Shown piece after piece: positions 1,387-27,997 of a stretch of DNA of 29,271 bases. The notes under the pieces were generated by a model. That model was not told the origin of the DNA and made no database searches. It worked only from the letters and a program-made list of their open reading frames with translations. The stretch is taken from IMG/VR virus record IMGVR_UViG_3300028388_002866, positions 1 to 29,271 of that record; one strand, 5' to 3'. Position numbers and translations under genes: made by a program. Source of the stretch: a virus. Position 1 is the stretch's first letter, and each line of letters opens with the position of its first letter.

Positions 1387-2004
1387 ATGATGAATCACGA
1401 GAAGCGGCGCGAGTTAAGAGCAGATTTGCTTGAAAAACTAGATACACCCACACATACAAGTTTGCCGACAGACTACCAGAGCAAAGAGGACGGAGAGCGC
1501 GCTGTTAGCATTGCACTTGGCGAATGGCGGCAAAATGTCTTAGAGCCTAAAGAAGAAGTAAGATCCGGTCCGATTCTAGGCAGATACATTCGGCAAGGCG
1601 CCTTATGGGTATGGGTTCATACATATAAAAATAGAAAATTTGCATGGTGCGGTTGCTTTGCAGCGTGGGCTTGGAAAGAGAGCGTAAGTGGGGCAACAAG
1701 AAAAACATCATTTCCGAGCACATACAGGCTTAGAGAATGGGCTAAAGGGACAAAGCGCGAGATTGAGAGCTTAGAGAAAGCGCGTGCCGGCGACCTTTTA
1801 ATTGTCGGAAGTAAAAAAAAATGGGGGGACCACATTACATTGATTGAAAAAATAGAACCCGATTTTAGCGGTGCGTGGACGATTGAAGGGAACGCCTACG
1901 GAGAAACCCCGCGGAGTACAAAGCGACAAGAAGGAGTGATTAGGCGCTTTAGATCAGTTGACGAAGTGAGCTTTATTTATAGACCGTTGGAATGTGACAG
2001 ATGA
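1387..2004 (+). CDS. CHAP/NlpC-like cysteine peptidase, candidate endolysin or virion peptidoglycan hydrolase
   Basis: 205 residues with a CHAP-type active-site pattern: AWCGCFAAW with the candidate nucleophile Cys88 (after FAWC), WGDHITLIEKI with His149, and WTIEGNAYG with Glu167/Asn169 as third member. Such enzymes cut peptidoglycan peptide bonds or the amide to muramic acid. The N-terminal ~75 residues show no domain I recognise and no signal peptide, so export would need a holin. Two ATGs are in tandem (1387 and 1390), preceded by AAGGG. The gene follows two small membrane-type proteins and overlaps the portal start by 4 nt (ATGA). It may be the lysis enzyme, or a virion-borne hydrolase given its tie to the head genes. 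Confidence 0.8.
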   Translation: MMNHEKRRELRADLLEKLDTPTHTSLPTDYQSKEDGERAVSIALGEWRQNVLEPKEEVRSGPILGRYIRQGALWVWVHTYKNRKFAWCGCFAAWAWKESVSGATRKTSFPSTYRLREWAKGTKREIESLEKARAGDLLIVGSKKKWGDHITLIEKIEPDFSGAWTIEGNAYGETPRSTKRQEGVIRRFRSVDEVSFIYRPLECDR

Positions 2005-10000: not shown

Positions 10001-11223
10001 ACTTTGATAAAGACCCACAAAGTCAGTTTATAGGCTTTCAAAACAGGGATTTAGAAAGAGACAGACAAAGCGCCGCAAGGCGAATGGGAGTAAAATACTT
10101 ACCAGCAAGAACAGAGCTTATAGAAGCTAGTGATGTAGTAAGCGACAAAACAGACGGCTTAAAAGGCTCTTATTGGGATAGGAACGAGCGCCCCGAAATT
10201 AAGCGCTTATTGGATGAAACAGCTTCAAGAGGACGTTATCAATCTACCTTTCAAACAGGCTACACGCCAAGCCTATATGACTTAAAGCAAGTAGTACAAA
10301 GCGCCGATAAGTTAAAATTAGTTGACGCATGGAATCAGAACCAAGACACACATAATCGAATGGTAAGCTTTGCGGAAGAAGGAGATCTTGAGTCTTTAAA
10401 GAAGATACTATCAGACTTTAGAACAGACTACCTTTCTATGATAGCAAGGAACTCTTTACATAACGGATATGGAAAACGTGCCAAGCGAGTCATCAGAGAC
10501 AGCAAAACATCAGCACACCGAGAATTAGCAAAGCAAGAATACTTAGATTTTGAAAAAGAGTATGTAGCAAGAGCTAAACAGATCTTTGAAGAAACAAGAA
10601 CAGAAACAGACGCACAAATAATTCAACATCTAAAAGAGCGCTACTTTAGATACAAAGACCGCCCGTCCGAATTTAGTACAGCACCACGACTAACACCAAG
10701 TGAGAGAGCGCAAATTACAAAGCGTTTTGATGAAGCCGCCGCCAGAGCTCAATTAATTGAAGCCTCAGACCAAAGCGCCGAAAGTGCAGCGGTAAGGATT
10801 ACACAGGGCTTGACCGAGGAAAAGCTGACTGATTTCAGTAAAGACTTAACGGACGGTGATGTATCACAGATCTATGACCGCACGCGTTTTTTGACAGTGG
10901 CAAAAGAAAAGCCCACCAAGACATTAATGAGATCAAAGAAACAGCGAGCTATTGATAATGAATTGATTCTAATGCACCAGCGCTTAGACATTCACGCAAA
11001 AAGAAAATTTGGCAGCCTTGCGCCGCGCGTCACAGAAGGTTCTAGGTATCATCAAATGTTCAAAGAAGGAACAAGAGAGCCAGAGCATAGAGAGAAGATT
11101 AGGGCGAAGATCAAAAAGGACATTGAGAAACTGCACAATGTACTCAAGACCACAGCCAAGAGCGCTGAGAAATTAATTAATTATCGTGCAGCACTTTATA
11201 AGGCATTGAACCAAGCAGCTTAA
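7069..11223 (+). CDS. Giant multidomain protein with shared module and NFETMPE repeats (polyvalent protein B)
   Basis: 1384 residues. Residues 1-150 are a leading helical region with a KVPKWL motif. Residues 153-278 are the shared module (HKYIRRIPKG, YDYVYKEHHRGG, GHFHV, VEHDETGRS, ERMKRESPKSIGLKAA). Residues about 485-555 contain HTKTGVKLYTAKQKDRVDR followed by AKKYKGRYDSRYAKAYLFK, resembling a small alpha/beta domain recurrent in large phage and plasmid proteins. NFETMPE motifs lie at 568, 580 and 870; a partial DNFEL lies at 485. The rest (about 590-860 helical, 880-1384 mixed) is unrecognised. No nuclease, protease or toxin motif is evident. It is 2 nt from the helicase upstream (AAGGGA ribosome site), so it is co-expressed. 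Packaging or injection with DNA is inference from the architecture. Confidence 0.8.
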   Translation: MNVLITNLAPSGTKVGDKTGRKQPIIKALKHLTASGQKVPKWLANEALDYSISEPSLFSAEEVQACMDSILDTKAPSIAIMNKAIKSKQDVPMSRRRAKLLAEYANRLSQMLENAPDDKDLAEWVQSKIDRAASAIQSAFHYLEYDELEKGASHKYIRRIPKGRDKRTGRMRYDYVYKEHHRGGLRAAVDDLKAGEAFKLTDPKNGQKGHFHVKGVKGNVVVVEHDETGRSVTMTKAEFKALLMKEHGQALKDNFQAKKETYERMKRESPKSIGLKAAFNRLKAAAEKAGVKVPQVQTAPEQASKQSSLSKEQFKEKIEELKNLEDKLSLFLNTISTKQFLTPEQEKKVIEEQQAEIAEKRKQLTEGFKRPQSFEELETRLRKLLPKLKGLDYNRITGYKLYIDEENIASLRSQIKDLVGTGLYISQTNEKNYGLQIQRASYKDMTRLLFALENEAKQKTAPEPAARAQLIDTAKPEPAQPAKIDNFELSEHTHTKTGVKLYTAKQKDRVDRDEFKRRVQIAKKYKGRYDSRYAKAYLFKNPEDARKFALEVEGKPTDSPTTAPATNNFETMPEAESVDNFETMPESKLSDPHRARKEKVFKEVTTGELYQTRALIDENEIRGVYENQTLASLKRNLEPDRLAAESGIQESGLLQGIENATRISQLAKEYKDFQVRTAITFDRKDKAVLNERGNPRGISDFIREKLNLNSVKDVRAQKDEIEKIASELLKLGVDNAVKRAKETATKRKNKISADGISIFDNHITEAEKRLEFIQTSNLKDSKKLIDGIREAIKLTKEAKEVYKQKSGNLLDQAISENSNQAIINGLLENSSTRFHFTINPKGSAAKKLTETIVQSTLSNVLKDVAQSQDNFETMPEVELPPKGERTVEDAKKWFGEPTYFETKMLTGTKRYFQYEKDGLTVRGGPIGAKGQLLAGSKVYTSINLTPENRKKISGAQFSQTELGEYRSIDEALRAAINYFDKDPQSQFIGFQNRDLERDRQSAARRMGVKYLPARTELIEASDVVSDKTDGLKGSYWDRNERPEIKRLLDETASRGRYQSTFQTGYTPSLYDLKQVVQSADKLKLVDAWNQNQDTHNRMVSFAEEGDLESLKKILSDFRTDYLSMIARNSLHNGYGKRAKRVIRDSKTSAHRELAKQEYLDFEKEYVARAKQIFEETRTETDAQIIQHLKERYFRYKDRPSEFSTAPRLTPSERAQITKRFDEAAARAQLIEASDQSAESAAVRITQGLTEEKLTDFSKDLTDGDVSQIYDRTRFLTVAKEKPTKTLMRSKKQRAIDNELILMHQRLDIHAKRKFGSLAPRVTEGSRYHQMFKEGTREPEHREKIRAKIKKDIEKLHNVLKTTAKSAEKLINYRAALYKALNQAA
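7522..7902 (+). repeat. Shared module, copy 2
   Basis: Encodes about residues 152-278 of the 1384-residue protein. Bases 7522-7619 differ from 16395-16492 at only five positions by my alignment, all synonymous third-codon changes, so 33 consecutive residues are identical. Similarity continues, more weakly, to the ESPKSIGLKAA segment. Confidence 0.9.
8770..8826 (+). repeat. Two NFETMPE motif copies, 36 nt apart
   Basis: Copies at 8770-8790 and 8806-8826 (the second preceded by a GAT codon for Asp) encode NFETMPE. They use the same bases AACTTTGAGACTATGCC and then CGAA. They flank a short AESVD linker, after the Pro/Thr-rich PTTAPAT run, and look like inter-domain spacers. Confidence 0.9.
9673..9696 (+). 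repeat. DNFETMPE motif copy
   Basis: Same codons as the pair at 8770-8826, except that Pro-Glu is CCAGAG. It separates the helical middle from the C-terminal half of the 1384-residue protein. Confidence 0.9.
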
Positions 11224-11266: not shown

Positions 11267-11719
11267 ATGAAAGCGAAACACATAAAAATAAGAGCAGCGC
11301 AGTGTGACCTCATAGCAAGCGCAAGTCCTTGTAGCCGGCGCAAAGTAGGCGCCTTGATCATTGAGCCGACGTCAAACTCAATTATCAGTGAAGGCTACAA
11401 CGGCACGCCGCGAGGAAGTGATAAATTTCTTTGTGGAGGCAGTACATGCCACCGAACAACAAACGCCATAAAAAGCGGGACTCAGAACGATGTAGGGTGC
11501 CACCATGCAGAGATCAACGCCATATTGAACGCGGCCCGAATAGGCGTATCAACCCAAGACAGTTGGCTATTCACGAATTGCGACCCTTGTTTAATGTGTG
11601 CTAAATCAATTCATCACGCGGGCATTTCAAAAGTCTACACAAAATTAACCAGCCAAAGCGCAGGGATTGTTTACCTTCAAGAAAACAAAATAAAAACAGT
11701 CTCGACAAGTGAGCTTTAA
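11267..11719 (+). CDS. Zinc-dependent deoxycytidylate (dCMP) deaminase
   Basis: 150 residues of the cytidine/deoxycytidylate deaminase family, which converts dCMP to dUMP for dTTP synthesis. Zinc and catalytic residues are plain: HAE at 80-82 (His80 ligand, Glu82 proton shuttle) and PCLMC at 107-111 (Cys108 and Cys111 ligands). EGYNGTPRGSDKF at 42-54 and further Cys/His residues (56, 61, 62, 78) resemble the second zinc site of phage T4-type and ComE-type dCMP deaminases. The length is right for the family. It sits directly before a ribonucleotide reductase, so the pair would boost deoxynucleotide supply during infection. The location inside the structural/polyvalent block is unusual. Confidence 0.9.
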   Translation: MKAKHIKIRAAQCDLIASASPCSRRKVGALIIEPTSNSIISEGYNGTPRGSDKFLCGGSTCHRTTNAIKSGTQNDVGCHHAEINAILNAARIGVSTQDSWLFTNCDPCLMCAKSIHHAGISKVYTKLTSQSAGIVYLQENKIKTVSTSEL

Positions 11720-11764: not shown

Positions 11765-13738
11765 ATGATTGAGAACTTTGTATATAAATTAAAATATGCA
11801 CGTTATAACAAGGAAGAAAAGCGCCGTGAAAATTGGAACGAGAGCATTAAACGATACATGGAAATGCACCGGAAAAAGCTACCTTATGAAGCTGATTTAA
11901 TGGACGCAGTGGAGCAAGCGCTTATTGAAAAGCGCATTTTGCCGTCTATGCGAGGCTTACAGTTTGGCGGCGCCGGCATAGAGCGAAAGAACATGAGAAT
12001 GTACAATTGTACAAGCTCATATTGCGACCGCCCAAGATTTTTTGCGGAAGCACTATGGCTTCTACTTTGCGGTTCGGGTGTAGGTTTTTCAGTACAAAAA
12101 CATCATGTTGCGAAACTGCCAAGTCTCAGAGCGCCAAACGAAACTATGGCCTATATTGTTGAAGATTCAATTGAAGGTTGGGCGGATGCTGTAAATGTAC
12201 TAATTCATGCTTATATGGGAGAGAATTGCGAACCTCAGTTTGATTATTCTCAGATCAGACCAAAAGGGGCGCCGTTGTCCGTAGGGGGCAAGGCTCCGGG
12301 ATTTGAACCGCTGAAACAAGCAATTGAGCACATAAAGCCAATTCTAAAAAACGCAGTAGGCCGGAAGCTAAAGACAATTGAGGCTTTTGACATTGTGATG
12401 CACTTGGCAAACTGCACAATCACAGCAGGCACCCGTAGGAGTGCGACGATTGCTTTATTCTCATTAGATGATGATGAAATGATGAACGCAAAAACCGGCG
12501 ATTGGTTTGTAGAACATGGCCATAGAGCGCGCGCAAATATAAGCGCGGTTGTTTTACCAGACGCAGAAGAAGCGCAATTTAAAAGATTGTTTGAGAGCAC
12601 GCGCCAATACGGAGAACCGGCTTTTTTATTTTTAAATAGCTCAGAGCATGCCGTGAACCCGTGTGTCGAAATTGTTATGTGTCCGGTGCTGATTCGGGAC
12701 CCCGAAGGGGAAATTGTCAAAGAATACTCACTAGATCTAATTGACCCGCAGAACCGCGAGCAGTACGAAGCGCAAGGCTACCAATTCGAGAGCGGTTGGC
12801 AAACGTGCAATTTAACGTCAGTTAATGTAAGTGCAGCCCAAAACAAAAAAGATTTTATCGAGGCGGCGGCGCTTGCTGCGCAGCTTGGAACGTATCAAGC
12901 AAGCTATACGGAAACAGATTACTTAGGAGAGACAAGCAGGCTCATTATCGAGCGCGAGGCGCTTTTAGGCGTGAGCTTGTGCGGCGTGCTTTCTAAACCA
13001 GAGCTTGCCCTTAATCCGGACATCTTGACAGAGGCGGCTTTAACGGCAAAAGAGCGCAATAAAGCAACGGCTTTGAGAATTGACATTGAGCCAGCGGCGC
13101 GTGTGACATGTGTCAAGCCCGAAGGTACGGCAAGCCTTGTTCTAGGTACAAGCTCCGGTATACACCCCGCTCATGCTCAAAAATACCTCCGGCGAGTGCA
13201 AGTGAGCTCAGAAGAAGCAGTATTCCAACATTTCAGAGAAGTAAATCCACAGGCAATCGAAAAAAGCGTGTGGGGCTCAGATTATTGTTGTGTATTCCCC
13301 TTAGAAGGAAAAGGGATTACAAAAGCCGACCTAAGCGCAATTGAGCTTTTAGACAAAACAGCACTTGTCAAAAAACATTGGATAGACCCAGCAACAAGCC
13401 GTGATAGCCTAGAAGGGGCTACGCACAATGTAAGTTTAACAGTGACAATCAAGCCGGACGAGTGGGACAACGTTGCAGACTACCTATGGAAGAATAAAGA
13501 TAATTATACCGGCGTCAGTTTACTTTCAAATACCGGCGACTATGACTATCCGCAAGCGCCTCTCGTTGCAGTCTCAGAAAGTGGCGAGAGTGCAGAAGAA
13601 AAAGCAGCGTGGGAGTTATGGCAACACTTGAATAATACAATGAAAGTTGTAGACTACACGACAATGAACGAAGAAGAAGATTTAACAGTCCCCTTAGCGA
13701 TTCAAGTCTGTGCAGGGGGCGCTTGTGAATTAAAATAA
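11765..13738 (+). CDS. nrdJ: Adenosylcobalamin-dependent class II ribonucleotide reductase (monomeric RTPR type)
   Basis: 657 residues resembling the single-chain ribonucleoside-triphosphate reductase of Lactobacillus leichmannii (739 aa). It reduces ribonucleotides to deoxyribonucleotides using a cobalamin-generated thiyl radical, so it needs no oxygen or NrdB subunit. Visible residues: Cys82 in YNCTSS and Cys348 in QTCNLTSVN as the active-site disulphide pair; the NPCVEI motif with Asn298, Cys300 (thiyl radical) and Glu302; KPEGTASLVLGTSSG at 451-465 (phosphate binding); and the C-terminal shuttle pair in CAGGACELK. All are intact, so the enzyme should be active. It depends on host cobalamin. 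An AAGGG ribosome site precedes the start. It follows dCMP deaminase and precedes the second helicase by 7 nt. Confidence 0.92.
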   Translation: MIENFVYKLKYARYNKEEKRRENWNESIKRYMEMHRKKLPYEADLMDAVEQALIEKRILPSMRGLQFGGAGIERKNMRMYNCTSSYCDRPRFFAEALWLLLCGSGVGFSVQKHHVAKLPSLRAPNETMAYIVEDSIEGWADAVNVLIHAYMGENCEPQFDYSQIRPKGAPLSVGGKAPGFEPLKQAIEHIKPILKNAVGRKLKTIEAFDIVMHLANCTITAGTRRSATIALFSLDDDEMMNAKTGDWFVEHGHRARANISAVVLPDAEEAQFKRLFESTRQYGEPAFLFLNSSEHAVNPCVEIVMCPVLIRDPEGEIVKEYSLDLIDPQNREQYEAQGYQFESGWQTCNLTSVNVSAAQNKKDFIEAAALAAQLGTYQASYTETDYLGETSRLIIEREALLGVSLCGVLSKPELALNPDILTEAALTAKERNKATALRIDIEPAARVTCVKPEGTASLVLGTSSGIHPAHAQKYLRRVQVSSEEAVFQHFREVNPQAIEKSVWGSDYCCVFPLEGKGITKADLSAIELLDKTALVKKHWIDPATSRDSLEGATHNVSLTVTIKPDEWDNVADYLWKNKDNYTGVSLLSNTGDYDYPQAPLVAVSESGESAEEKAAWELWQHLNNTMKVVDYTTMNEEEDLTVPLAIQVCAGGACELK

Positions 13739-13745
13739 GGGATTT

Positions 13746-15698
13746 ATGCGAATCATTTCAATTGACCGGCCGCCGCTCTTTACTGCTCGTAACAAACCAG
13801 CATGGACAGAGCATTTTGACCTCTTAAAAAAATTAGGAGTGCTCAAAGCACTTGGGCCGCGTCACTTGAGAGATCGAACACTTATTTTATTAGATAAAGC
13901 CCAAAGCAACTCAAGTTTAACAGTGGGCCAAGAGAGCCGACTTAGTACAATTATTACAAGACTTACTGACTTGTGGTGCCAATGGTCAGACGATGAAAGA
14001 GAGTTGTTTTTTTACACGTTCTTAGACGTAGATCAGCAGCCCGAAATCAAAAGACCCGACATAGAAACACCAGCCTCTATCGAAATACCGGCAGACATGG
14101 AACGAATGACTTTGCGCGGTTGGACCCCGCACCTATATCAGCAAAGAGCTGTGCAGTTTGCCATTACAAATAGAAGATGTGTATTAGCGCTTGAAATGGG
14201 ACTAGGTAAAACTTTAATTGCACTTTTAGTCCTACACCATTTAAAAGCGCACAACGCATTTAAAACAATCATTACAGCGCCTAAAAGCGCCTTCGGTTCA
14301 TGGTCCGACCATTTGAAACTAAGCGAGTCTAAGATTTGCATTTTAGATAACATGAAGCCGGAGGATAGAGAACAAGTTTACACAGAGCTTTACACGGGTA
14401 AGATTGACGGTGTTATTGTAACTCCACAAACTTTTACAATTGATTTCAAATACTTTTTTAAAATAGCGACAGATCATAAGAGCTTGTTAATTGCAGATGA
14501 AGTCCACAAGTATAAAGGCGGCGGAAAAGCCGGCGTTGCATTTGAGAGAGTGAGCTCAAGAGCGGGAAGGGTCATAGGTTTAACAGGCACCCCGAAGCCG
14601 AACAAGGTTGAAGATTTTTATAAAATCATTTCAAGAGTCAGTCCCCAGAGTCTAGGGACCTATCAAGAATTTACAAGTGATTACACCTACCGGCAATTTG
14701 ATCAATTTATTTCTAATAAAGGGAATCAGTACATAGCCGGCGCACTTAGAGCGGATAGACTGAATCACTTATACAACCGTTTAAAAAATGTTCTCTTTGT
14801 GAGAGCAGCAACTGACCCCGATTGCCAATTAAACTTACCAAAGCGCAAAGACCTTGCACCGTACCTAGTCCCCGATCAAGGGCAAAAAGAAATGATGAAA
14901 AAGCTCATTGAATTACAAGCAGCGAGAGAGATTAATAGCTCGCTGTATAATGAAGCTTTGGAAGGGCAGCATGGATTTATTGCACAGGTCGCCGCGGAAG
15001 GGGCCACAGCCACGGCACAGGCACTAGGACAGCGCATTGAACAATTAATGATAACGCCCGCGATTTGGTCTGAAACATTTAATCGAAAATACCCCGATTA
15101 TGAGAGCCCTAAATTAAAACTCATTGCTGACAAAGTAAAAGCTTATATCGACCATGACACAAGCGCCGGTGCTGTTATATTTTGTGAATATATAGGCGGG
15201 CTCACGGCGATTTATAGAGCACTGATTAGGCGCGGACTACATAGAGAGCTTATTGATATATACAGTGGCAGCAGCACACGAAAAGCAAGAACGGACATGG
15301 AGCGCAAATTAAACGAGGGGGAAATAAAAGTTTTAATTGGTCAGACAAGAGCACTTGAAACAGGCGCAAACTTACAAAACCGCGCGGCCTATGTTGCACA
15401 CCTAAGCACCCCGTGGGCGCCAGATACTTTAACGCAATCAACCGCGCGAGTTTACAGGCAAGGTCAAAAAAAGCCGGTGACAGTTTTAAGACCAAGCTGC
15501 GGGCGATTAGAAGAAGCCAAAAACAAAGCACTGAGCCGAAAAATTATGCAGAGCGCCGGACTCACCGGTTTATTATTTGATGCAGACAGAGCAGTTTTAG
15601 ATACAAGCTCAGATGAACGAGTGCGCAGGGCGCAAGCTGATTTAATAGCGACAGGGGCATATAGTTATAGTATAATTAAAAAATTATGTGAGGTATAA
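13746..15698 (+). CDS. Second SNF2-type DEVH helicase, paralogue of the first
   Basis: 650 residues, homologous to about residues 395-1050 of the 1205-residue helicase but lacking its shared module, middle region and C-terminal tail. Motifs: Walker A EMGLGKT at 150-156, DEVHKYK from 251, TGTPKPNK from 280, a GQTRALETGANL segment, and QSTARVYRQGQ at 564-574. Stretches such as LNTPWAPDTLTQSTARVYRQ are almost the same in both (Ser for Asn here). The motor is intact. The homologous N-terminus (LKKLGVLKALG, then SDDERELFFYTFLD) shows the two proteins share a helical lead-in before the helicase core. TAAGGG before the ATG gives a ribosome site. The duplication flanks the dCMP deaminase/reductase pair. 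Confidence 0.85.
   Translation: MRIISIDRPPLFTARNKPAWTEHFDLLKKLGVLKALGPRHLRDRTLILLDKAQSNSSLTVGQESRLSTIITRLTDLWCQWSDDERELFFYTFLDVDQQPEIKRPDIETPASIEIPADMERMTLRGWTPHLYQQRAVQFAITNRRCVLALEMGLGKTLIALLVLHHLKAHNAFKTIITAPKSAFGSWSDHLKLSESKICILDNMKPEDREQVYTELYTGKIDGVIVTPQTFTIDFKYFFKIATDHKSLLIADEVHKYKGGGKAGVAFERVSSRAGRVIGLTGTPKPNKVEDFYKIISRVSPQSLGTYQEFTSDYTYRQFDQFISNKGNQYIAGALRADRLNHLYNRLKNVLFVRAATDPDCQLNLPKRKDLAPYLVPDQGQKEMMKKLIELQAAREINSSLYNEALEGQHGFIAQVAAEGATATAQALGQRIEQLMITPAIWSETFNRKYPDYESPKLKLIADKVKAYIDHDTSAGAVIFCEYIGGLTAIYRALIRRGLHRELIDIYSGSSTRKARTDMERKLNEGEIKVLIGQTRALETGANLQNRAAYVAHLSTPWAPDTLTQSTARVYRQGQKKPVTVLRPSCGRLEEAKNKALSRKIMQSAGLTGLLFDADRAVLDTSSDERVRRAQADLIATGAYSYSIIKKLCEV
15690..15693 (+). 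promoter_or_regulatory. GAGG ribosome site that sets the start at 15700
   Basis: GAGG lies 6 nt before the ATG at 15700. The frame also has a GTG at 15688, but that would overlap the ribosome site itself, so 15700 is preferred. Confidence 0.6.
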
Positions 15699-15699
15699 A

Positions 15700-16368
15700 A
15701 TGGCAAACAAACTACATTTTACAGGACAAAGGAACGCCCTATATGACCCCGTTCAACAGTGGGAAATGGTCCGGCAATTAATTATTCAAAAAGGACCGCG
15801 TAGACAATTTGTTATTAAGGGGGGCTCCGGTACTGTTTTGCTAGAACACGGAGCAAGCGTGACTGATTTAATTCACACGTTAAAAAAAGGACAACGTAAA
15901 AAGCCCAGAGGGGGCGAAGTTGACTTGATCAAAGAGCTTGCACAGCAAATGAGCCAAGTCCACACAACGCGAGTTAATACTATGCTCAAGAGCATTGACG
16001 ACTTACTCGGAGAGCCTATAAAAAAAGGGTACACACCGCCGGCAGACGTCGCAAGAGCAGCCGCAAGAGGTCTTGAGCTAAGACGGAAGCACAAGCGCGG
16101 CGGACTTGATGTAAAACAAGCAGCCAAACATGGTATAGGGAGCGGCGTCCAAAGAGCCGTCAACTTGAAAAATAGAGATGAAATAAGCGCTAAGACTGTT
16201 AAGCGCATGAAAAGTTTTTTTGCACGTCATAGAAAAAACAAAAGTGGTAAAATGCCAGACGGCACACCTAGCGCCGGCGCGATTGCTTGGCTCTTATGGG
16301 GCGGAGATGCCGGAGACCGGTGGAGTAAAAAAGTAGTGGCGCAACTAGAGAAGAAGGGAAAAAAATGA
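15700..16368 (+). CDS. Phage protein with C-terminal SAGxIAWxLWGGDAG domain
   Basis: 222 residues. The N-terminal ~75 residues (MANKLHFTGQRN...) are unrecognised. Residues about 110-212 carry a domain I know from many phage virion-associated proteins: YTPPADVARAAARGLELRRK, NRDEISAKTVKRMKSFFARH, then SAGAIAWLLWGGDAGDRW and a final Ser-Lys. Its biochemical role is not established to my knowledge. It is often fused to or encoded beside head proteases and portals, which fits this position. The protein is very basic, which would suit nucleic-acid contact. One base separates it from the helicase stop, and it overlaps the next gene by 4 nt (ATGA), so all three are coupled. Confidence 0.75.
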   Translation: MANKLHFTGQRNALYDPVQQWEMVRQLIIQKGPRRQFVIKGGSGTVLLEHGASVTDLIHTLKKGQRKKPRGGEVDLIKELAQQMSQVHTTRVNTMLKSIDDLLGEPIKKGYTPPADVARAAARGLELRRKHKRGGLDVKQAAKHGIGSGVQRAVNLKNRDEISAKTVKRMKSFFARHRKNKSGKMPDGTPSAGAIAWLLWGGDAGDRWSKKVVAQLEKKGKK

Positions 16369-19244
16369 GCACTGTATTAGATCTATTAAAAGCGGCAAGT
16401 CATAAATATATTAGACGTATACCGAAGGGCCGAGATAAACGAACAGGCCGCATGAGGTATGATTATGTTTACAAAGAGCATCACAGAGGCGGTATTTTAT
16501 CAGCTGTCGAAGATGTGGAAGCCGGCGCAGCGTTTAAACTACCCGACCCAAAAAGCGGGCAAGACGGACATTTCCATGTTGAAGCAGTTAAAGGGGATAA
16601 AATCACAGTAAAACATGATGAAACAGAGCGTAGCGTCACGATGACTAAGGCTGAGTTTAAAGCACTGCTTCAGAGGGAACACGGACAAGCGCTAAAAGAA
16701 ACCGCAAAGAAGCGCCGTGAGACTTACGAGCGCATGAAGCGAGAGAGCCCTAAAAGCATAGGGCTCAAAGCGGCTAAAAACCGAGCAGAACAACTTGAAC
16801 GTATGGCGGGTGTAGATAAGGTAGAAGAACCAGAAGAAGACCCCGAAAAAAAGATCAAACGCCTAAAGACTTTTATTGAGTATGCAAACAAAGTCCAACA
16901 CTTTATTTTAGACAATAAAGCAATGGACCATAGAGGAGCTAAAAGAGCTTTAGACCTTATCAGTGAGAGGTATCTTAGCGACGATTTCCGAAATATATTT
17001 ACTTACGATCAAGTCTTAGCAATGAGGCCCCCCGCCCAAAAGATTGACCTCGGAAAAATTATAAAGGATTCAGAAAAAAAGCTTATACAAACAGAAAACA
17101 AACTAAAAGCGGCAAAGAAAAAAGAAGCTAAGAGCGCCGATAACTTTGAGACTATGCCAGAGTCAAAAGAGCTCTCGAAAAAAGAAAAGGTTTTAGCTAA
17201 TCAAATCGAAGCCAGCGCAAAGAAAAACCTAGATTTCCTACAAAGAATCATTAAAACAAACAGGCGGGAATCTAACGAATATAGATTTAACAAAGCACTA
17301 AAAGCGGCCACTGAGAGAATCTTTTATGAGGTTGCAAAAACAGTAGGGTTAGATGAAGACTATTTATACTTTGCTAAGCGTACTCCATCTTTTTTACATA
17401 TAGATAAATCTCAAAATGCAGACTTTTTTAACAGCATATATGCGATTTATAACGGTGATACTAATGCGGAAAATGAAAACCTAGAAGTATACCACAAGAT
17501 CATAGAAAAATTAGTTGACCATACCGCCATGAACAGAAGCGGCGGCGGCGTGACGGCGGAAGAAAGACGCAACTTTAAAAAGTTAAGCCGACGATTCAAA
17601 GCCCAAGAAGATCTTATTTCTAAAAAGCTACTAAAACCGAAAAAAGAAGCTAAGAGTAAAGAGAACTTTGAGACTATGCCAGAGTCAAAAGAGCCCGCTC
17701 AAGAGCCCAAAGTACCAAGTAAGGCACAGCTAACAGACTTATTAAGTCAAATGAGCGATATATTAAAAGCCAAGCCGGAACTCAGAAACGACCCTAGAAT
17801 CGTTGGCCTATTCGGCACAGAGAGCAAGCCAACTGTTAATACAGACAAGCGCAATTCTGAAATAATGATTACCTTAGACGGCAAGCCGCAAAAGGGGAAA
17901 GTGAAATATAGAATCGTTGAAGCAGGTGACGCGATAGCCTCGCATGAGCCAATAGGATTTGGCCGGCGTGAAGATTACCCAGAAGGGATTCAAGAACGCA
18001 AGTATCACAGCGACAAAGCGGAAATGATGAAAGTGATTAGAAACGCACAGCAATTTGACCCCGCTTATTTAATCAATACAAATCCCGACGCGACCAACGG
18101 CCCGCCGGTAATGACGCCAGAAGGCATTGTACTTGGCGGAAATAGCCGAGTAATGAGCACGCAACGGGTCTATGCAAATCACCCAGAGAGCGCAGAACAA
18201 TATAAAGAGTTTCTGAAAAAGCAAGCAGACACATTTGGATTCGACCCTAACGAGGTTTCTAAATTCAAAGCGCCTTTACTAGTCCGAGAATACGAACCGA
18301 AAAAAGACACGAAAGACCATTTGGCAAAGCTAGTCAGAACCTTGAATGAGACAAAGACGCAAGGCATAGATGAAAGGCAATTAGGACTTGCAACGGCTGT
18401 TAAGATTAGGGACGGGCGGACACTAGGCGCTTTGAAAACATCACTTGCAGAGAGCTCATTTAACAACGTAGAAAACTTAATGACAAAACCTTCACCGGCA
18501 CTTGATAGATTTAAAGAAGCGCTTTTTGCGGACGGTGTACTTACAAATGAAAATATGAACGAGATGCTAAGACAAGCAGACGGCACATTCACCGGACGCG
18601 GACGCGATTTTATTAAGTCCATGTTAGTGGGTTATGTGGTCCGAGATAGTGATCTGTTAGAAGGTTTGAGCACAAGCACAATTAATCACTTGTCAACAGC
18701 GATCAGTAAGCTTTCAAGCGCCGGTATTAATGATCATGCACAGAAAGCCCTGCAAGATGCGATTGAAGTATATCATCATGCAGTAGCGCGGGACCGATTA
18801 AAGCGCGGTATGACGCCACAAGCCCGCAATGAAAATATAAATGATATAATGCTCTCAGAACGTGAGCTATTTAATACAGAGCCGAAAGACGGTGAGACAG
18901 AAGAACAGAAAGCCCAGCGAGAAAAACAAGCCCGATTTGCAAAGACCAAAGAGCGCGTAAGTAAGGACCCCCTTGCAAGCTCATTCTTAAAGATCTTAAC
19001 TTTAAGTGTGGGAACCCGCAAATTAAGCGAACAAATGGACAAGTTTTTAAAATTGACCGAAGATACAGGCGTTATTGACATGTTCGGAGGGAGCTCTCGC
19101 GTTTCATTTGATGATGCTGCAAGAAAGCTATCAAAGGACCTTGCGCGGGACTTTGGAATAGAAGATCAATTATATGAGATTAAAAAGAGTCTTGCGCTTC
19201 TTAATTTCTACAAAGGTTTCTTAGATGCTAGTCTTAGACGCTGA
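16365..19244 (+). CDS. Giant protein with shared module, NFETMPE repeats and DdrB/ParB-like domain (polyvalent protein C)
   Basis: 959 residues. Residues 12-137 are the shared module. Residues about 150-490 are helical linker with NFETMPE motifs at 260 and 434. Residues about 495-720 resemble the DdrB-like ParB superfamily domain: INTNPDATNGPPVMTPEG, then IVLGGNSRVMSTQRV (GGNSR at 591-595, the ParB-type nucleotide-binding arginine motif), followed by a VRTLNETKTQGIDERQLGLA stretch. The C-terminal ~230 residues are helical and unrecognised. DdrB/ParB domains recur in phage and conjugative-element polyvalent proteins and may bind or cleave DNA/nucleotides. An AAGGGA ribosome site precedes the ATG. 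It ends 20 nt inside the MuF gene, tying it to head assembly. Entry into the virion is inference. Confidence 0.82.
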   Translation: MSTVLDLLKAASHKYIRRIPKGRDKRTGRMRYDYVYKEHHRGGILSAVEDVEAGAAFKLPDPKSGQDGHFHVEAVKGDKITVKHDETERSVTMTKAEFKALLQREHGQALKETAKKRRETYERMKRESPKSIGLKAAKNRAEQLERMAGVDKVEEPEEDPEKKIKRLKTFIEYANKVQHFILDNKAMDHRGAKRALDLISERYLSDDFRNIFTYDQVLAMRPPAQKIDLGKIIKDSEKKLIQTENKLKAAKKKEAKSADNFETMPESKELSKKEKVLANQIEASAKKNLDFLQRIIKTNRRESNEYRFNKALKAATERIFYEVAKTVGLDEDYLYFAKRTPSFLHIDKSQNADFFNSIYAIYNGDTNAENENLEVYHKIIEKLVDHTAMNRSGGGVTAEERRNFKKLSRRFKAQEDLISKKLLKPKKEAKSKENFETMPESKEPAQEPKVPSKAQLTDLLSQMSDILKAKPELRNDPRIVGLFGTESKPTVNTDKRNSEIMITLDGKPQKGKVKYRIVEAGDAIASHEPIGFGRREDYPEGIQERKYHSDKAEMMKVIRNAQQFDPAYLINTNPDATNGPPVMTPEGIVLGGNSRVMSTQRVYANHPESAEQYKEFLKKQADTFGFDPNEVSKFKAPLLVREYEPKKDTKDHLAKLVRTLNETKTQGIDERQLGLATAVKIRDGRTLGALKTSLAESSFNNVENLMTKPSPALDRFKEALFADGVLTNENMNEMLRQADGTFTGRGRDFIKSMLVGYVVRDSDLLEGLSTSTINHLSTAISKLSSAGINDHAQKALQDAIEVYHHAVARDRLKRGMTPQARNENINDIMLSERELFNTEPKDGETEEQKAQREKQARFAKTKERVSKDPLASSFLKILTLSVGTRKLSEQMDKFLKLTEDTGVIDMFGGSSRVSFDDAARKLSKDLARDFGIEDQLYEIKKSLALLNFYKGFLDASLRR
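16395..16775 (+). repeat. Shared module, copy 3
   Basis: Encodes about residues 11-137 of the 959-residue protein. Bases 16395-16492 are nearly identical to 7522-7619 (five synonymous differences). Here the module is at the extreme N-terminus, as in the first helicase, whereas in the 1384-residue protein it follows 150 other residues. Confidence 0.9.
17139..17162 (+). repeat. DNFETMPE motif copy
   Basis: Identical at base level to the copy at 9673-9696. It is followed by SKELSKKEK and preceded by a Lys/Ala-rich helix. Confidence 0.9.
17661..17684 (+). repeat. ENFETMPE motif copy
   Basis: Same bases as the copy at 17139-17162 except GAG for the first codon (GAT there). It precedes SKEPAQEPK, a Pro/Glu-rich linker leading to the DdrB-like part. 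Confidence 0.9.
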
Positions 19245-20232
19245 GCGCCGGACGCGCCAAAATATACGCGATCATTATGACGCCTTGTGCATTGAGCTTT
19301 TAGGCGTACGGGGAAGCGGTCTGAGTCAAGAACGTGTGAAAGCATTAATCAGAGCTCAATTAGTAGACCCGAGCGCGTTAAATGGTTTTAATGTAAATAG
19401 TTTAGACGAACCTTTAAATCCGATTTTGTTCATTCGGCGAATAGGCCCCTTGTACGCGAGAGCAAATCCGCGAGAACGCGCCAGAATGAGGCAGTACACT
19501 CTCCAGCAATGGCAACGGGAATTAAGAGGCTATGAACCACCGCCGGCGGTGCGATATACGCCGCCAATGGACAGACCAGAGGCGCCTAGTCAAAGCACAG
19601 TAGAGCAAAGCGCAATACCGGACAGCTTTGGAACAGCAGACCGAGCAAGTTTAGTAAGTGCGTTCCAATCAATGGGCGGTTATATACGCGGGTTAGGCGC
19701 GAGATTTGCGGACGAAGCCAGCGCTATAATTTTTGAAGATTGGAACGGGGAGCAGCTATTAAGCACACCCGACCCCCAACGCCGAGCAGATATGCTCAAA
19801 GTGATTAGAGAGGAAGTAGGCGCGGCTGTACTCACAAAAGATACAGCGCGAGAAGTAGCGCGTAGGATAAGACAGCGGAGCGATGATCTCGCAAGAAACT
19901 TTGACCGAATAGCCGAAACTGAATTACAGGCGGTCCATAACGAAGGACAAATTATCCAAGCCGTAGAAATTGACGGAGAAACGGCGCGAGTTGCGCGTAT
20001 TCCCGAATCCGGCGCATGTGGTTTTTGTAAAGAGGCTTTTTTAAATAGCGAGGGCTCACCTCAAATTTTCAATGTAGTAGATCTTATTGCAAACGGGGCA
20101 AACGTGGGAAGAAAGCGGAAAGATTGGCTGCCTAGTGCCTATCCCATGCACCCTAATTGTCGGTGTGATACAATTCCCGTTGGACCTAATCAAACGATCA
20201 CAAGAACAGGGAGATTAAAAAGTGTGGATTAA
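19225..20232 (+). CDS. MuF-like (SPP1 gp7-type) minor head protein
   Basis: 335 residues. The C-terminal part is a classical MuF domain: RIAETELQAVHNEGQ at 228-242, CGFC with Cys265/Cys268, and the HPNCRC signature at 309-314 (His309, Cys312, Cys314), which together may bind a metal. MuF proteins sit inside the head near the portal and are linked to early head assembly and to packaging of cargo proteins. Residues 1-135 are helical then Pro-rich. The start is ATG 19225, with AAGG at 19213-19216; it overlaps the preceding giant gene by 20 nt and the next gene by 11 nt. This tight coupling supports a link between the giant proteins and the capsid. Confidence 0.88.
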   Translation: MLVLDAERRTRQNIRDHYDALCIELLGVRGSGLSQERVKALIRAQLVDPSALNGFNVNSLDEPLNPILFIRRIGPLYARANPRERARMRQYTLQQWQRELRGYEPPPAVRYTPPMDRPEAPSQSTVEQSAIPDSFGTADRASLVSAFQSMGGYIRGLGARFADEASAIIFEDWNGEQLLSTPDPQRRADMLKVIREEVGAAVLTKDTAREVARRIRQRSDDLARNFDRIAETELQAVHNEGQIIQAVEIDGETARVARIPESGACGFCKEAFLNSEGSPQIFNVVDLIANGANVGRKRKDWLPSAYPMHPNCRCDTIPVGPNQTITRTGRLKSVD

Positions 20233-20923
20233 TTTATATAAAGCTGAGCGCATTGATAGTGACGACAATATAGCTAAAATTGCGGGCGTTATTAGTACAG
20301 ATGAAATTGACTTACAAGGCGAATCAGTTAAGCAAGACGGGCTCGACTTTGAGTATTTTCTAAAAAAAGGCTGCTTTAACTATGAGCATAAAGCCGGTGC
20401 AGAGAACATGCTTGGTTATCCTACGAAAGTACGCCAGCGTAAAGGCTATACAGAAGTAGAAGGTGTACTTTTACTCGACAAGCCCAAAGCCCGCGACATT
20501 TACCAGACCGCGCAGGCGCTCCAGAAAGCAGGGAGGCAAAGAACACTTGGTTTTAGTATCGAGGGTCAAGTTTTAGAGCGTGATTCAATGAAGCCGCAAC
20601 TTGTGACGAAAGCGCGTGTCATTAATTGCGCGATTACCTCAAACCCTATCAACCCGAACACAAGCCTTGAGCTTATGAAGTCTATCCTTGCAATAAACAA
20701 GGGCGCCGTAGGCTATCAAACGCCTTCTCAAGCAAGTGTAAATGGAGTAGGAAACCTTGTACCACAACAGTTATCTAACGTGCTTTCTAACGCATCTAGC
20801 GAATTACGTTTGAAAGATCAGCGTTTAGCTAGTACAATAAAAACACTGAACAAACTTTTACCTAATGCGCCAATGGCTGAGCTAGTGCGTATTTCAAAAA
20901 AACTTATTTTAGGAGATTCATAA
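20222..20923 (+). CDS. HK97-type prohead serine protease with capsid-like C-terminal tail
   Basis: 233 residues, GTG start overlapping the MuF gene. The fold is the HK97 prohead protease family: IAGVISTDEIDLQGESV, FNYEH with His56 and RTLGFSIEG with Ser112 as the catalytic pair, and ARVINCAITSNPINP at 131-145, typical of the family end. The protease matures the capsid by cleaving scaffold and capsid precursors, then itself. From about residue 150 the sequence departs from the family and instead matches the N-terminus of the major capsid protein: KSILAINKGAVGYQTP at 153-168 and NLVPQQLSNVLSNASS at 178-193. This tail could be a self-cleavage site, an assembly peptide or a leftover of duplication. 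A TAATG overlap joins it to the scaffold. Confidence 0.88.
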   Translation: MWINLYKAERIDSDDNIAKIAGVISTDEIDLQGESVKQDGLDFEYFLKKGCFNYEHKAGAENMLGYPTKVRQRKGYTEVEGVLLLDKPKARDIYQTAQALQKAGRQRTLGFSIEGQVLERDSMKPQLVTKARVINCAITSNPINPNTSLELMKSILAINKGAVGYQTPSQASVNGVGNLVPQQLSNVLSNASSELRLKDQRLASTIKTLNKLLPNAPMAELVRISKKLILGDS

Positions 20924-21501
20924 TGGATTCAGCAGAATTGATCCGCATGATGACTAGCGCCGGAGTCTCGCAAGACGTGGCGGAGAGCCGCGCAAATGAC
21001 TTTGTGCGTGAGCAAAGTGACAATGAGACATTTGAAAAGTCACTTGCAGCACTAGAGGACGTTGCACTTGCGCAACGTGAAGCAGAACAAGCGCATGAGG
21101 ACCGCTTAGTAAAGGCTTTTGACGACGGTCAAAGCTCAGTAGCGGAAGCAATTGCACCCGCTCTTGATTCTCTGCTTGTCGAGCAACGTGCTCAGAATGA
21201 AGCACTTTGCAAGGGGCTTACCGGCGCTTTAGAATTGATCAAGAGTCTAAAAGCTGACATTCAAACTTTAAAAGGTCAAGTACCCGTAGAAGCGCCGGCA
21301 ATGGCTAAAAGCGTTTCTTACTTACCTTCACCGGCAGACCAAAGCACCGAAAATGGCGACTTGAGCCGTGACGAGCTTTTTAAGTCACTCGGTGAAATCT
21401 CAACCAATTCACCAGAACGCGCGGCAGATCTTATGAAGGCGGCTGCACTACTTGAGTCCGGTGTCAACCCTAGCGAAATCAAGAGCCGTTTCAACATCTA
21501 A
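20923..21501 (+). CDS. Probable head scaffolding protein
   Basis: 192 residues, strongly acidic and helical through about residue 120 (repeated Glu/Ala/Gln/Leu patterns, likely coiled coil around 80-115), then a Pro/Ser linker and a short C-terminal helix (SRDELFKSLGEI, AADLMKAAALLESG). Position between protease and major capsid protein, size, and low complexity are what scaffolding proteins show; there is little sequence conservation in such families, so the call is mostly from context. Start ATG 20923 overlaps the protease stop by one base, with AGGAG at 20911-20915. Confidence 0.72.
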   Translation: MDSAELIRMMTSAGVSQDVAESRANDFVREQSDNETFEKSLAALEDVALAQREAEQAHEDRLVKAFDDGQSSVAEAIAPALDSLLVEQRAQNEALCKGLTGALELIKSLKADIQTLKGQVPVEAPAMAKSVSYLPSPADQSTENGDLSRDELFKSLGEISTNSPERAADLMKAAALLESGVNPSEIKSRFNI

Positions 21502-21505
21502 GGAG
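21501..21505 (+). promoter_or_regulatory. Strong ribosome site setting the capsid start at 21512
   Basis: AGGAG lies 6 nt before ATG 21512 and begins at the last base of the scaffold stop. It decides against the in-frame upstream ATG at 21452, which lies inside the scaffold gene and has no comparable site. Confidence 0.8.
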
Positions 21506-21511
21506 TTTATT

Positions 21512-22963
21512 ATGTCTTATGGAGTACCTTCAAGCGCCGACATGGCCGCACTAATGGGACAATTACAAAAAGCAAATAGTAGCTATGTAGGCTACCAAAC
21601 CCCCCTTGTTCCTCAAGGCGGAAGTCAAACAGCTAACAACATTTCACCGCTTGTTCCCCAGCAATTAGCTCAAACTTTGAGCATTGCTACATCTAGCATG
21701 AACGATCTTAAATTGTGGCCTATGCTTTCAAAAGTAGCGGCGCAAAATACAGTTGTCGAATATAACCGAGTTTTACAGCACGGTGCAGAACACGCCCCTT
21801 TCATTGCAGAGGGTGGGACCGCCGCACTAAACCGCTCTACTTATGAGAAAGTAGCTGTACAAATTAAGTACATGGCCGAGCGTCGCGAAGTCACTGATCA
21901 AGCTTCAATGGTGAACATCGTTGGGCCTAGCGCTGACGGCATCGCAGAAGAAACTCGCCGAGGTACAGAGAACCTATTACGCCGCCTTGAAAAAGAATTA
22001 TTTCATGGCGATAGCTCTCTAAACCCTCTTGCATGGGACGGTATTATTAAGCAGATCAAAGACGGCGGCAACGTTGCAGATTTGCGCGGTAAGGCGCCTT
22101 CTGCATTGTATCTTTCTGAGATTCTAGGCGCTCTTTACTCTGCCCCGTTCTACGGCATGATTTCACACATTCTTGTGACTCCTAAGGTGCTGTCTGAGCT
22201 TATTAAGCAAACTGTACATCACGGACGCCATGACCAAATTCAGATTAATTCGGGCAACGTGACCTTTGGAGCTCAAAGCATTTCAATTACCGGTCCTTAT
22301 GGTCCGATTCCTGTCATTGCTTGCCCGTTCTTAGAGCGTCATGATCGTATTGCACCTGCTTTAGCAACTAGTGCAGTTTTTGACGGCACTGTGACCGCGC
22401 CTACCATTAGCGTTGCGGCTGCGGCTGCTCAAAATGCTGCTTCTAAGTTTGTAGCGGCGGATGCGGGTGATTATATCTATCGCGTTGTACCTGTCGGTAA
22501 AAACGGCATTGGTGAGGCGGTTGATACTGCGGCTGTTTCAGTAGTCAGTGGTGACCAAGTGACCTTTACTATTGCTCAAACTAACTCAGCAGAAGTTGAT
22601 TTCTACCGCGTTTATCGAAGCAAGCCAGACGCGGCAAACGCTGACGGCGCCTTACTTGTCGGTGAAGTAAAACGCACCGGTGCGGCTACTGTTTTCACAG
22701 ATAACAATTTAGACATTCCGGGAGCTTCGGACATTGTATTTGTAAATCAAAGCCCTGACTACATGTGCTACTACCAGATGCTTTCACTTGTACGCCGTCC
22801 TCTTGCGCAGCTTTCAACAAGCTATCCTTTCCTCTTAATGATGTTTGGTGCGCCGGCTGTTAAATTGCCTAACAAGATGTTTGTTGTAAAGAACGCGGGT
22901 GTTAATGCTTCAAGCGGTCTTAGCAATGTTTCTGACCCTGTACTTTTAGGTCTACGCCCTTAA
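21512..22963 (+). CDS. Major capsid protein with inserted Ig/FN3-like domain
   Basis: 483 residues. Residues about 50-285 and 405-470 look like a phage major capsid protein: LVPQQLAQTLSIATSSMNDLKLWPML, VVEYNRV...PFIAEGG, a YEKVAVQIKYMAERREVTDQ strand-helix pattern, and LVTPKVLSEL. Between about 290 and 405 sits an extra beta-rich segment (Ala-rich linker, GDYIYRVVPVGKNGIGEA, VDFYRVYRSKPD) that resembles a fibronectin type III or Ig-like domain, likely displayed on the capsid surface. Codon use is visibly smoother (more CGC/CGT and GCT) than in neighbours, as expected for a highly expressed gene. The N-terminal ~60 residues are shared with the protease tail and might be removed on maturation. 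Confidence 0.9.
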   Translation: MSYGVPSSADMAALMGQLQKANSSYVGYQTPLVPQGGSQTANNISPLVPQQLAQTLSIATSSMNDLKLWPMLSKVAAQNTVVEYNRVLQHGAEHAPFIAEGGTAALNRSTYEKVAVQIKYMAERREVTDQASMVNIVGPSADGIAEETRRGTENLLRRLEKELFHGDSSLNPLAWDGIIKQIKDGGNVADLRGKAPSALYLSEILGALYSAPFYGMISHILVTPKVLSELIKQTVHHGRHDQIQINSGNVTFGAQSISITGPYGPIPVIACPFLERHDRIAPALATSAVFDGTVTAPTISVAAAAAQNAASKFVAADAGDYIYRVVPVGKNGIGEAVDTAAVSVVSGDQVTFTIAQTNSAEVDFYRVYRSKPDAANADGALLVGEVKRTGAATVFTDNNLDIPGASDIVFVNQSPDYMCYYQMLSLVRRPLAQLSTSYPFLLMMFGAPAVKLPNKMFVVKNAGVNASSGLSNVSDPVLLGLRP

Positions 22964-26346: not shown

Positions 26347-26353
26347 ATTTGTG

Positions 26354-27997
26354 ATGCCTACCATTTTAAACAGTACCGGATTCCCCCGAACCCGTAGACC
26401 CGCTATTTATACCCGCGTTGATGCGTCCGCCCTTGCCGGAGGTGACATTGAAAGCGGAAATATTGCACTTGTTGGCGACTTTGCAAGTTTTAGCAGTACC
26501 GAACCTACAAGTTTTTTCTCGCGCCGATCAATGACAGCTTATGATTCAACAGACAGTGAGCTCTCACTTTTAGCTCAGTTAGCATTTAATCCAAGTGATG
26601 ACCCTAACGCTAACTTTGGCGCAGCTTCATTAAGTATCGTAAACGCAAGAGAAAATTGTACAAAAAGCACAATTGATCTAGGACCTTTAACTTTAAGCTC
26701 TAAAATTTACGGATTAAAAGCAAATAGACTTACTGCTACTCTCGCAATTACCGGCGCAAAGCATGAGCTAAGCTTGAACCGTAATGGGCTCACAGAGCAG
26801 TTTGAGATTGAAAATACTGCTTTATTGAGTGTTGAGAACGGGACCGGCGGCGATGTTGATTTGACCATTGAAGAAGGCACTTTGACATTGACAGACGGCA
26901 ACGGGACATTAATCAGTTTTGACTCAACCGAAGCGCCCGATTTACAGAGCGCTGTTAATTTATTAAATACAGTAGCCGACATCACCGCACTTTTGATTGA
27001 GCCCAGCAGCATTGCACTAGGGAGCATTGACTATGTAAGTGAGACAATTGCAGACGCGGCAACATACGAAGTAAAAGCGCCGGCTTATCTCTTAACACAA
27101 GAGCTTTTACGATCTAATCTTGTGACAAGTGAAATTGACAACTCAAGTACAGCAAGCTCTTTTAGTAGTACAAGCGTGACTGCAACCGGTGGTGCACAAG
27201 GCGCAACAACAGATTATGAAGCAGCGCTAAGATCTATTGAAAATAAGAACATTCAAATAGTTGTGCTCTTTACAGATGATTTGAGCTCACAATCCTTTTT
27301 GGCGGCACACTTACAGGCCGCAGGCCAAGCAGGCTATGAGCGACAAGCGTACACAGCAATTGATAGCAATTCAACACTAGCTCAAGTCCGTACTAGAGCA
27401 GCGAGCTTGAACAATGCCGGTATTGCGCTTACAAGCCAAAGCGGAGAGCTCATTGACCCAAAGGGGGCCCGCCGATCAATCAACAGCAAGCACCTTGCTT
27501 TGATTCTTGCCGGTATGCAAGCAGGGTCTGACATCGGAGAACCCTTGACGCGCAAACGTCCGCGCTTGCTCTCAGTGAGCCAACAGTGGGATAATTACTC
27601 AGACGCAGAAGAAGCACTTAGGTCTGGTACTGTCTTTATTAATGCCGATAATTTAGGTCTGAAAATTGAGCGTTCTATTACAACGTACATGACAGATAAT
27701 AATCCGATTTATTCAGAGATTAGCACTTACGAAAGCATTTTAGCGTCGTTAAGAGATATAAGACAGTCATTAGCTGACCAAATTGGACGTCCGACAAGAG
27801 CAAGCCAATTGAGCCTTATCAGTGGCCGAGTTAATACAAGACTCACAGCACAAGTCACGGACGGCATTATAAAAGCATTTCAGAACATTGAGCTTGAAGA
27901 TTTAGGCGATGAAGTAGCCGTCAGCTATGAAGTTGCACCGGTTGAGCCCTTAAACTTTGTCACTGTCACAGCAATTGCACAACGTATTTCAGCATAA
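26354..27997 (+). CDS. Contractile tail sheath protein
   Basis: 547 residues from ATG 26354. The C-terminal third is characteristic of myovirus sheaths: residues around 470-547 with RAAQ-like order SLADQIGRPTRASQLSLISG, then the late LTAQVTDGIIKAFQNIELED and the final VSYEVAPVEPLNFVTVTAIA strand. The sheath wraps the tube and contracts to drive DNA delivery. Preceded by a promoter-like -10 and strong ribosome site, and followed 13 nt later by the tube gene. This gene is the main basis for calling the phage a myovirus. Confidence 0.85.
   Translation: MPTILNSTGFPRTRRPAIYTRVDASALAGGDIESGNIALVGDFASFSSTEPTSFFSRRSMTAYDSTDSELSLLAQLAFNPSDDPNANFGAASLSIVNARENCTKSTIDLGPLTLSSKIYGLKANRLTATLAITGAKHELSLNRNGLTEQFEIENTALLSVENGTGGDVDLTIEEGTLTLTDGNGTLISFDSTEAPDLQSAVNLLNTVADITALLIEPSSIALGSIDYVSETIADAATYEVKAPAYLLTQELLRSNLVTSEIDNSSTASSFSSTSVTATGGAQGATTDYEAALRSIENKNIQIVVLFTDDLSSQSFLAAHLQAAGQAGYERQAYTAIDSNSTLAQVRTRAASLNNAGIALTSQSGELIDPKGARRSINSKHLALILAGMQAGSDIGEPLTRKRPRLLSVSQQWDNYSDAEEALRSGTVFINADNLGLKIERSITTYMTDNNPIYSEISTYESILASLRDIRQSLADQIGRPTRASQLSLISGRVNTRLTAQVTDGIIKAFQNIELEDLGDEVAVSYEVAPVEPLNFVTVTAIAQRISA

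Follow-up and report, generated by a model that had tools for sequence, protein, structure and literature searches.

The C-terminal tail of an SPO1-type prohead protease copies the N-terminal arm of the major capsid protein

The same short motifs are found in the tail of a prohead protease and at the N-terminus of the major capsid protein (MCP) in a 29,271 nt fragment of the virus record IMGVR_UViG_3300028388_002866 (this whole stretch is called the window below). Why should a protease carry a piece of the capsid protein? The initial annotation had put forward three options: a protease recognition site common to both proteins, a peptide positioning the protease among the capsid subunits, or the remnant of a capsid gene duplication. 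We examined the resemblance itself, the probable cleavage sites and the conservation of the tail among relatives, and then weighed these options.

The head module and the arm copy

Relatedness of the window was judged from its head genes only. The prohead (head maturation) protease gene (20222..20923, + strand, GTG start, 233 aa) adjoins a gene for a Mu F-like/VG15-like protein (19225-20232), and is followed by the genes for a 192 aa scaffold protein, assigned by position (20923..21501, + strand), and for the MCP (21512..22963, + strand, ATG at 21512, 483 aa). The portal gene (2001-3449) is separated from the protease gene by large genes, and further head-tail genes, among them the tail sheath (26351-27997), lie downstream. 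The protease matches the phrog_1028 head maturation protease (E=1e-45), its match to Pfam Peptidase_S78 being just under the cut-off, and is homologous to the proteases of the SPO1 gp3.2 and K gp175 type (phrog_1028; tblastn to SPO1-type phages). The MCP matches phrog_752 (E=1e-66) and is homologous to SPO1 gp6.1 and to the phage K/812 MCP structures (PDB sequence search, E=3e-23 and 8e-22). Protease, scaffold and MCP follow each other in this order ahead of contractile tail genes, as in an SPO1/K-type head module. By eye from the translations, a deaminase-like gene (11267-11719, + strand) and a ribonucleotide-reductase-like gene (11765-13738, + strand) lie between portal and protease.

Residues 158-196 of the protease (20693..20809, + strand) copy residues 18-64 of the MCP of the same phage. 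The initial annotation had pointed to protease residues 150-200, to VGYQTP and LVPQQL in both proteins and to spacers of 10 and 15 residues, and this reading was exact: the motifs stand at 163-168 and 179-184 in the protease (spacer of 10), and at 26-31 and 47-52 in the MCP (spacer of 15). The resemblance is not confined to these two hexapeptides, but extends over some 45 residues and includes the cleavage site. The Smith-Waterman score of the tail against its own arm was 86, compared to 33.8 +- 6.0 for shuffled proteases, none of 500 reaching 86. When the MCP was searched by tblastn against the whole record, the protease tail was the only second match (E = 2.2e-4), and when profiles built from 62 tails and from 56 arms were compared, the probability was 98.8 (E = 4.8e-17, 39 columns). 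Similarly, the phage K protease finds the N-terminus of the phage K/812 MCP in the PDB sequence set (E = 1e-6). A chance similarity or low-complexity artefact, for which nothing speaks except that the hexapeptides are short, deserves practically no credence given the profile comparison, the shuffles and the detection of the copy in 21 of 23 protease lineages (see below). We conclude that the resemblance is real, and stronger than first reported.

The copy lies between two folded parts of the protease. In the AlphaFold2 prediction, the folded catalytic domain covers residues 13-153 (20258..20680, + strand; pLDDT mostly 80-97), with H56 and S112 invariant in the alignment columns, and the mimic is followed by a C-terminal helical hairpin, residues 193-231 (20798..20914, + strand; pLDDT >90 over most of it). 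The segment predicted as disordered, 155-193, is nearly coextensive with the mimic. The predicted fold matches herpesvirus assemblin (Foldseek, E ~2e-4, probability 1.00), and a PDB sequence search found no solved structure of a related protease. On the capsid side, the MCP monomer prediction shows low-confidence or disordered residues 16-49, preceded by a helix at 8-20. According to these models, mimic and arm would both be flexible, and become ordered only on a partner. A derivation of the protease hairpin from the scaffold was ruled out, as profile comparison detected no similarity. The scaffold has a separate gene, and the nested arrangement of lambda C/Nu3 or herpes UL26/UL26.5 is not found here.

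Probable cleavage sites in capsid protein, protease and scaffold

The site of MCP cleavage can be read from phage K/812. Its MCP has 463 residues, and the deposited chain (9row, 9rox, 9roz) starts at S25, right after K24; that residues 1-24 are missing from this chain argues strongly, though indirectly, for a cut after K24. In the phage K protease, S165 aligns opposite residue 1 of the mature MCP. The equivalent of K24 in the window's group, K20, is invariant in 42 MCPs, and cleavage of the window MCP after K20 is supported by homology. This gives a probable propeptide of residues 1-20, ending at K20 (21512..21571, + strand), and a mature N-arm of residues 21-64 (21572..21703, + strand), the model for the mimic.

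In the window protease, a putative autocleavage site, K153|S154 (20678..20683, + strand; the bar marks the presumed cut), is found at the domain boundary, and a second candidate, K160|G161 (20699..20704, + strand), directly before the mimic. In 117 of 123 tails, the catalytic domain is closed by K|S, R|S or K|A, the boundary residue being R instead of K in some relatives, which counts against the docking and release account given below; this conserved basic|small dipeptide is only suggestive of a removal of the segment by autocleavage. Upstream of the shared GY, the nearest [K/R]|[S/A/G] stands at 2-13 residues in all 67 distinct tails, and a K|[S/A/G/T] at 3-11 residues in all 67 MCPs.

The scaffold is rich in such sites. 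Each of the 10 lysines of the window scaffold has S, A or G as its next residue (for an expectation of 30%; binomial p = 5e-6), and the K|[S/A/G] fraction is also high in the scaffolds of other members of the window's group. In Herelleviridae scaffolds, K|S is the most clearly enriched form, and some show little or no enrichment. By comparison, only 1 of 17 lysines of the MCP beyond residue 60 has the K|[S/A/G] form. We infer from these counts a K|[S/A/G] cleavage rule for SPO1-type head proteases. Under this rule, the window MCP would lose residues 1-20 and keep its arm, so that the copied motifs would belong to the mature arm and not to the propeptide; what is copied would thus be the mature N-arm together with the cleavage site before it. 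A third arm copy, which AKSVSYIPAP seemed by eye to form in the scaffold, was rejected (z = 0.9 against shuffles, profile probability 0.4%): the scaffold has the K|[S/A/G] site alone in common with the arm.

These sites bear on the first option, a common recognition site. In its extended form, an exosite of the protease would read the arm downstream of the cut, and tail and MCP would carry the same long recognition sequence, with no docking involved. In all 67 pairs, tail and MCP resemble each other in the cleavage dipeptide and in its spacing from GY, which fits with this form, as does the start of the K/812 mature chain at the K24|S25 site, and part of the match is indeed cleavage context, explicable by recognition alone. 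A site of this kind is common to both sequences, as had been proposed, but the motifs named in the proposal lie downstream of it, in the part that the mature capsid keeps. Moreover, the match continues for some 30 residues after the cut (to ~P32'), far outside any active-site footprint. The scaffold, with its many K|[S/A/G] sites, lacks an arm copy; if those sites are cut, cutting can probably do without the arm. For these two reasons recognition alone becomes the less likely account, and we regard extended recognition as unlikely.

A site of the same kind was seen in other proteins of the window. Three very large proteins, encoded on the + strand at 3450-7067 (an SNF2 helicase with a DarB-like phrog match), 7069-11223 and 16365-19244 (with a ddrB-ParB domain), have in common a domain starting HKYIRRIPKG...YVYKEHHRGG. 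This HKY domain was also found in L078, L080, L082, L091, L097, L098, L103, L106, L107, L111, L112, L113 and L131. In 18 of 18 distinct copies, K[AG] and two residues precede HKY (K[AG]xxHKY), mostly at 30 residues or less from the N-terminus, and this K[AG] is of the kind cut under the head protease rule. The domain likely serves as a signal, for packaging or as a propeptide, in anti-defence proteins that are internal and ejected. Short repeats, DNFETMPES, ENFETMPES and DNFETMPEV, occur several times in the proteins at 7069-11223 and 16365-19244 and look like linkers or signals. A second SNF2 helicase (13746-15698, + strand), paralogous to the one at 3450-7067, has no HKY domain.

Conservation of the tail and matching to its own capsid protein

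Relatives were collected as 43 MCPs and 80 proteases from IMG/VR (overlapping sets), and 14 annotated phage regions were read. Keeping one representative per 60% catalytic-domain identity left the 23 lineages mentioned above. The score of the tail with its own arm exceeded all 300 shuffles in 20 of them, and 299 of 300 in phage AVP. The tail is not the variable, unconserved appendage, next to a capsid protein with an intact N-terminus, that the initial annotation had set as the counter-case: it is kept in nearly every relative. The copy was present in the environmental relatives of the window and in Herelleviridae (phage K, SPO1, and Listeria, Lactobacillus, Enterococcus and Bacillus phages; LP-125, 521B, Efs8, Eldridge, KKP_4048, Lb338-1 and AVP are among the phages with a copy), and, outside this family, in Pseudomonas phage Dolphis, Bordetella phage PHB04 and Thermus phage Cumys. 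Among 69 distinct IMG-type tail/arm pairs, the GY motif was found in all 69 tails and an LVPQQL-like motif, searched with a simple pattern, in 64; most of the remaining tails have a recognisable variant of it by eye.

Two lineages gave no copy above chance in 300 shuffles, Bacteroides phage DAC19 and Chryseobacterium phage MA9V-3, and count against the docking account given below, although in the latter (L058, 1698-3296) protease and scaffold share one reading frame of 532 residues and are apparently fused, a layout that resembles herpesvirus UL26.

In distant phages, the tail follows a quite different arm. The head module of Herelleviridae (SPO1/K/A511-type) has the order portal-protease-scaffold-MCP and a protease tail copying the MCP arm, as in the window, but the arm reads GYGITPDTQ.DAGALRRE in K-like phages, compared to GYQTP..LVPQQL in the window, and each tail follows its own MCP. 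In phage K, the protease tail reads KSFLTGHGTSPDTQVDAGALRKEEIASSITNL and the MCP KSFQTGYGITPDTQIDAGALRREILDDQITML, and the match runs from K164 to L199 of the former protein and from K24 to L55 of the latter. In Thermus phage Cumys, TAGDPHALD.K.GL.GVPAIR.ESLE is common to protease and MCP.

Own and swapped pairings of tails and arms were then compared between lineages, by raw BLOSUM62 scores. Own pairing scored above swapped pairing in all 134 lineage pairs with less than 35% catalytic identity (29/29 below 25%, 105/105 at 25-35%), in 55 of 56 pairs at 35-45%, and in 54 of 63 at 45-61%. The observed total for own pairing was reached in none of 10,000 permutations. A single old duplication followed by independent drift would give equal scores for own and swapped pairings; as own pairing wins, the tail is not a decaying duplication. 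At identical tail/arm residues, the same codon was used in 270 of 602 cases, for 266.8 expected from codon usage, i.e. at chance level. The choice among synonymous codons being random at these positions, it is at the protein level that the match is kept. Codon use also ruled out a recent gene conversion between the protease and MCP genes (recent, as opposed to very old). Tail and arm appear to be kept alike at the protein level by a common partner, or by each other; a co-evolving exosite, as supposed under extended recognition, would also give such a co-variation.

This matching bears most directly on the third option, in which an ancient duplication or fusion placed the MCP 5' end on the protease gene, the product having no present function. 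Only the scaffold gene lies between the protease and MCP genes, and copy and MCP arm run in the same order, so that a duplication is a possible origin. As a full account it is excluded, because the tail tracks its own MCP in distant lineages, and the functionless remnant is highly improbable when nearly all lineages keep a copy matched to their own MCP at the protein level, with random synonymous codons.

Some relatives offer a further observation. An insertion, PRP(S/T)(S/N)AGYQTP, is found in both protease tail and MCP in L018, L019, L021 and L035, and in the MCP only in L020, L024, L037 and L038. Judged from the sequences, these groups would be a natural case of matched versus unmatched arms.

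Proposed docking and release, and known systems

The option best supported of the three is the second, the peptide placing the protease among capsid subunits, on account of the co-variation with the phage's own partner, the extent of the match and the flexible tail, the docking itself being deduced. We consider it probable, with some reserve, that the tail is a docking and release module imitating the MCP of the phage. The MCP precursor would be ordered as propeptide, K|small residue, N-arm and HK97-fold shell domain, and the protease as catalytic domain, [K/R]|small residue, arm copy and helical hairpin. These parallel layouts suggest that the protease docks like an MCP, with its catalytic domain at the position of the propeptide. 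During prohead assembly, the arm copy would take the place of an MCP N-arm, its partner being either adjacent capsid subunits or the scaffold, and a limited number of protease molecules would thereby be incorporated, each catalytic domain sitting where a propeptide would, beside the main substrate site. Once assembly is complete, the protease would free itself at the K|S (or K|G) before the copy, remove the MCP propeptides by a cut at the corresponding K|[S/A/G], and break down the scaffold, in which such sites are numerous. In Herelleviridae, peptides of the protease have been detected in purified virions, those of CKA15 and fRuSau02 (PMC12282133, PMC5618024).

A related possibility is that the tail is a regulatory pseudo-arm, competing with MCP N-arms and keeping the protease inactive or restricted, for instance to the portal vertex. 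It would rest on the same data as docking, and HK97 and D3 proheads hold few protease copies (PMC12749128); we nevertheless give it a low chance. A bolder version of docking, tentative and rather doubtful at present, makes the protease a counterfeit lattice subunit: the arm copy would replace the MCP N-arm at defined positions, with the catalytic domain at the propeptide place, and the arm peptide would stay in the mature capsid after self-cleavage.

Docking by a C-terminal tail has parallels. In herpesviruses (assemblin, UL26) and in lambda (C/Nu3), the protease enters the procapsid via a C-terminal segment common with the assembly protein, and then cleaves itself apart. The window protease is predicted to share the assemblin fold, but in both these systems the common segment is scaffold, produced from nested genes, whereas the window encodes its copy of the MCP N-arm separately. 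In shuffle tests, the lambda C protease had no copy of the E N-terminus, nor T4 gp21 a copy of the gp23 or gp24 N-terminus, and altogether no clear copy of the own capsid N-terminus was found in the T4, HK97, P2, Mu and lambda proteases. HK97 was borderline (protease 9-45 versus MCP 76-118, a score reached by 8 of 500 shuffles), as was the T4 scaffold gp22 versus gp23 (9 of 500). The capsid-targeting sequence of T4 (CTS) is a short peptide bringing internal proteins into the prohead, where the head protease removes it (PMC9958956, PMC7411985); it is N-terminal and of ~10-20 residues, while the mimic of the window lies in the C-terminal tail of the protease.

A similar layout is that of SPN3US gp245, a prohead protease whose catalytic domain is likewise followed by an additional C-terminal segment; in the window protease, the catalytic fold ends around residue 153 of 233, and the segment beyond is as in proteases of this type. 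The 64-residue C-terminal propeptide of gp245 is lost by autocleavage and has been proposed to target the protease to the prohead (PMC7411985, PMC10052503). The portions of these reports covered here mention no similarity between propeptide and capsid, and give gp245 a cleavage motif resembling that of T4 gp21, not K|[S/A/G]; it is set apart here by this description, not by its sequence. In the literature searched, largely outside the subscription journals, no description of a capsid-arm protease tail was found. A C-terminal targeting tail has thus a precedent, and what appears to be new is a C-terminal packaging tail made by capsid-arm mimicry on a prohead protease.

The entry of a limited number of maturation proteases into the prohead, and their later release, have been outlined in no more than a few model phages. 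The sequences now appear to give the answer for a large group, among them therapeutic phages of staphylococci and Listeria. It offers a candidate targeting peptide, a K|S/A/G cleavage rule for SPO1-type heads, and possibly a means of loading cargo into these capsids. If the protease were indeed a counterfeit subunit, tailed phages would have in arm mimicry a general means of controlling how many maturation proteases they build in, and where.
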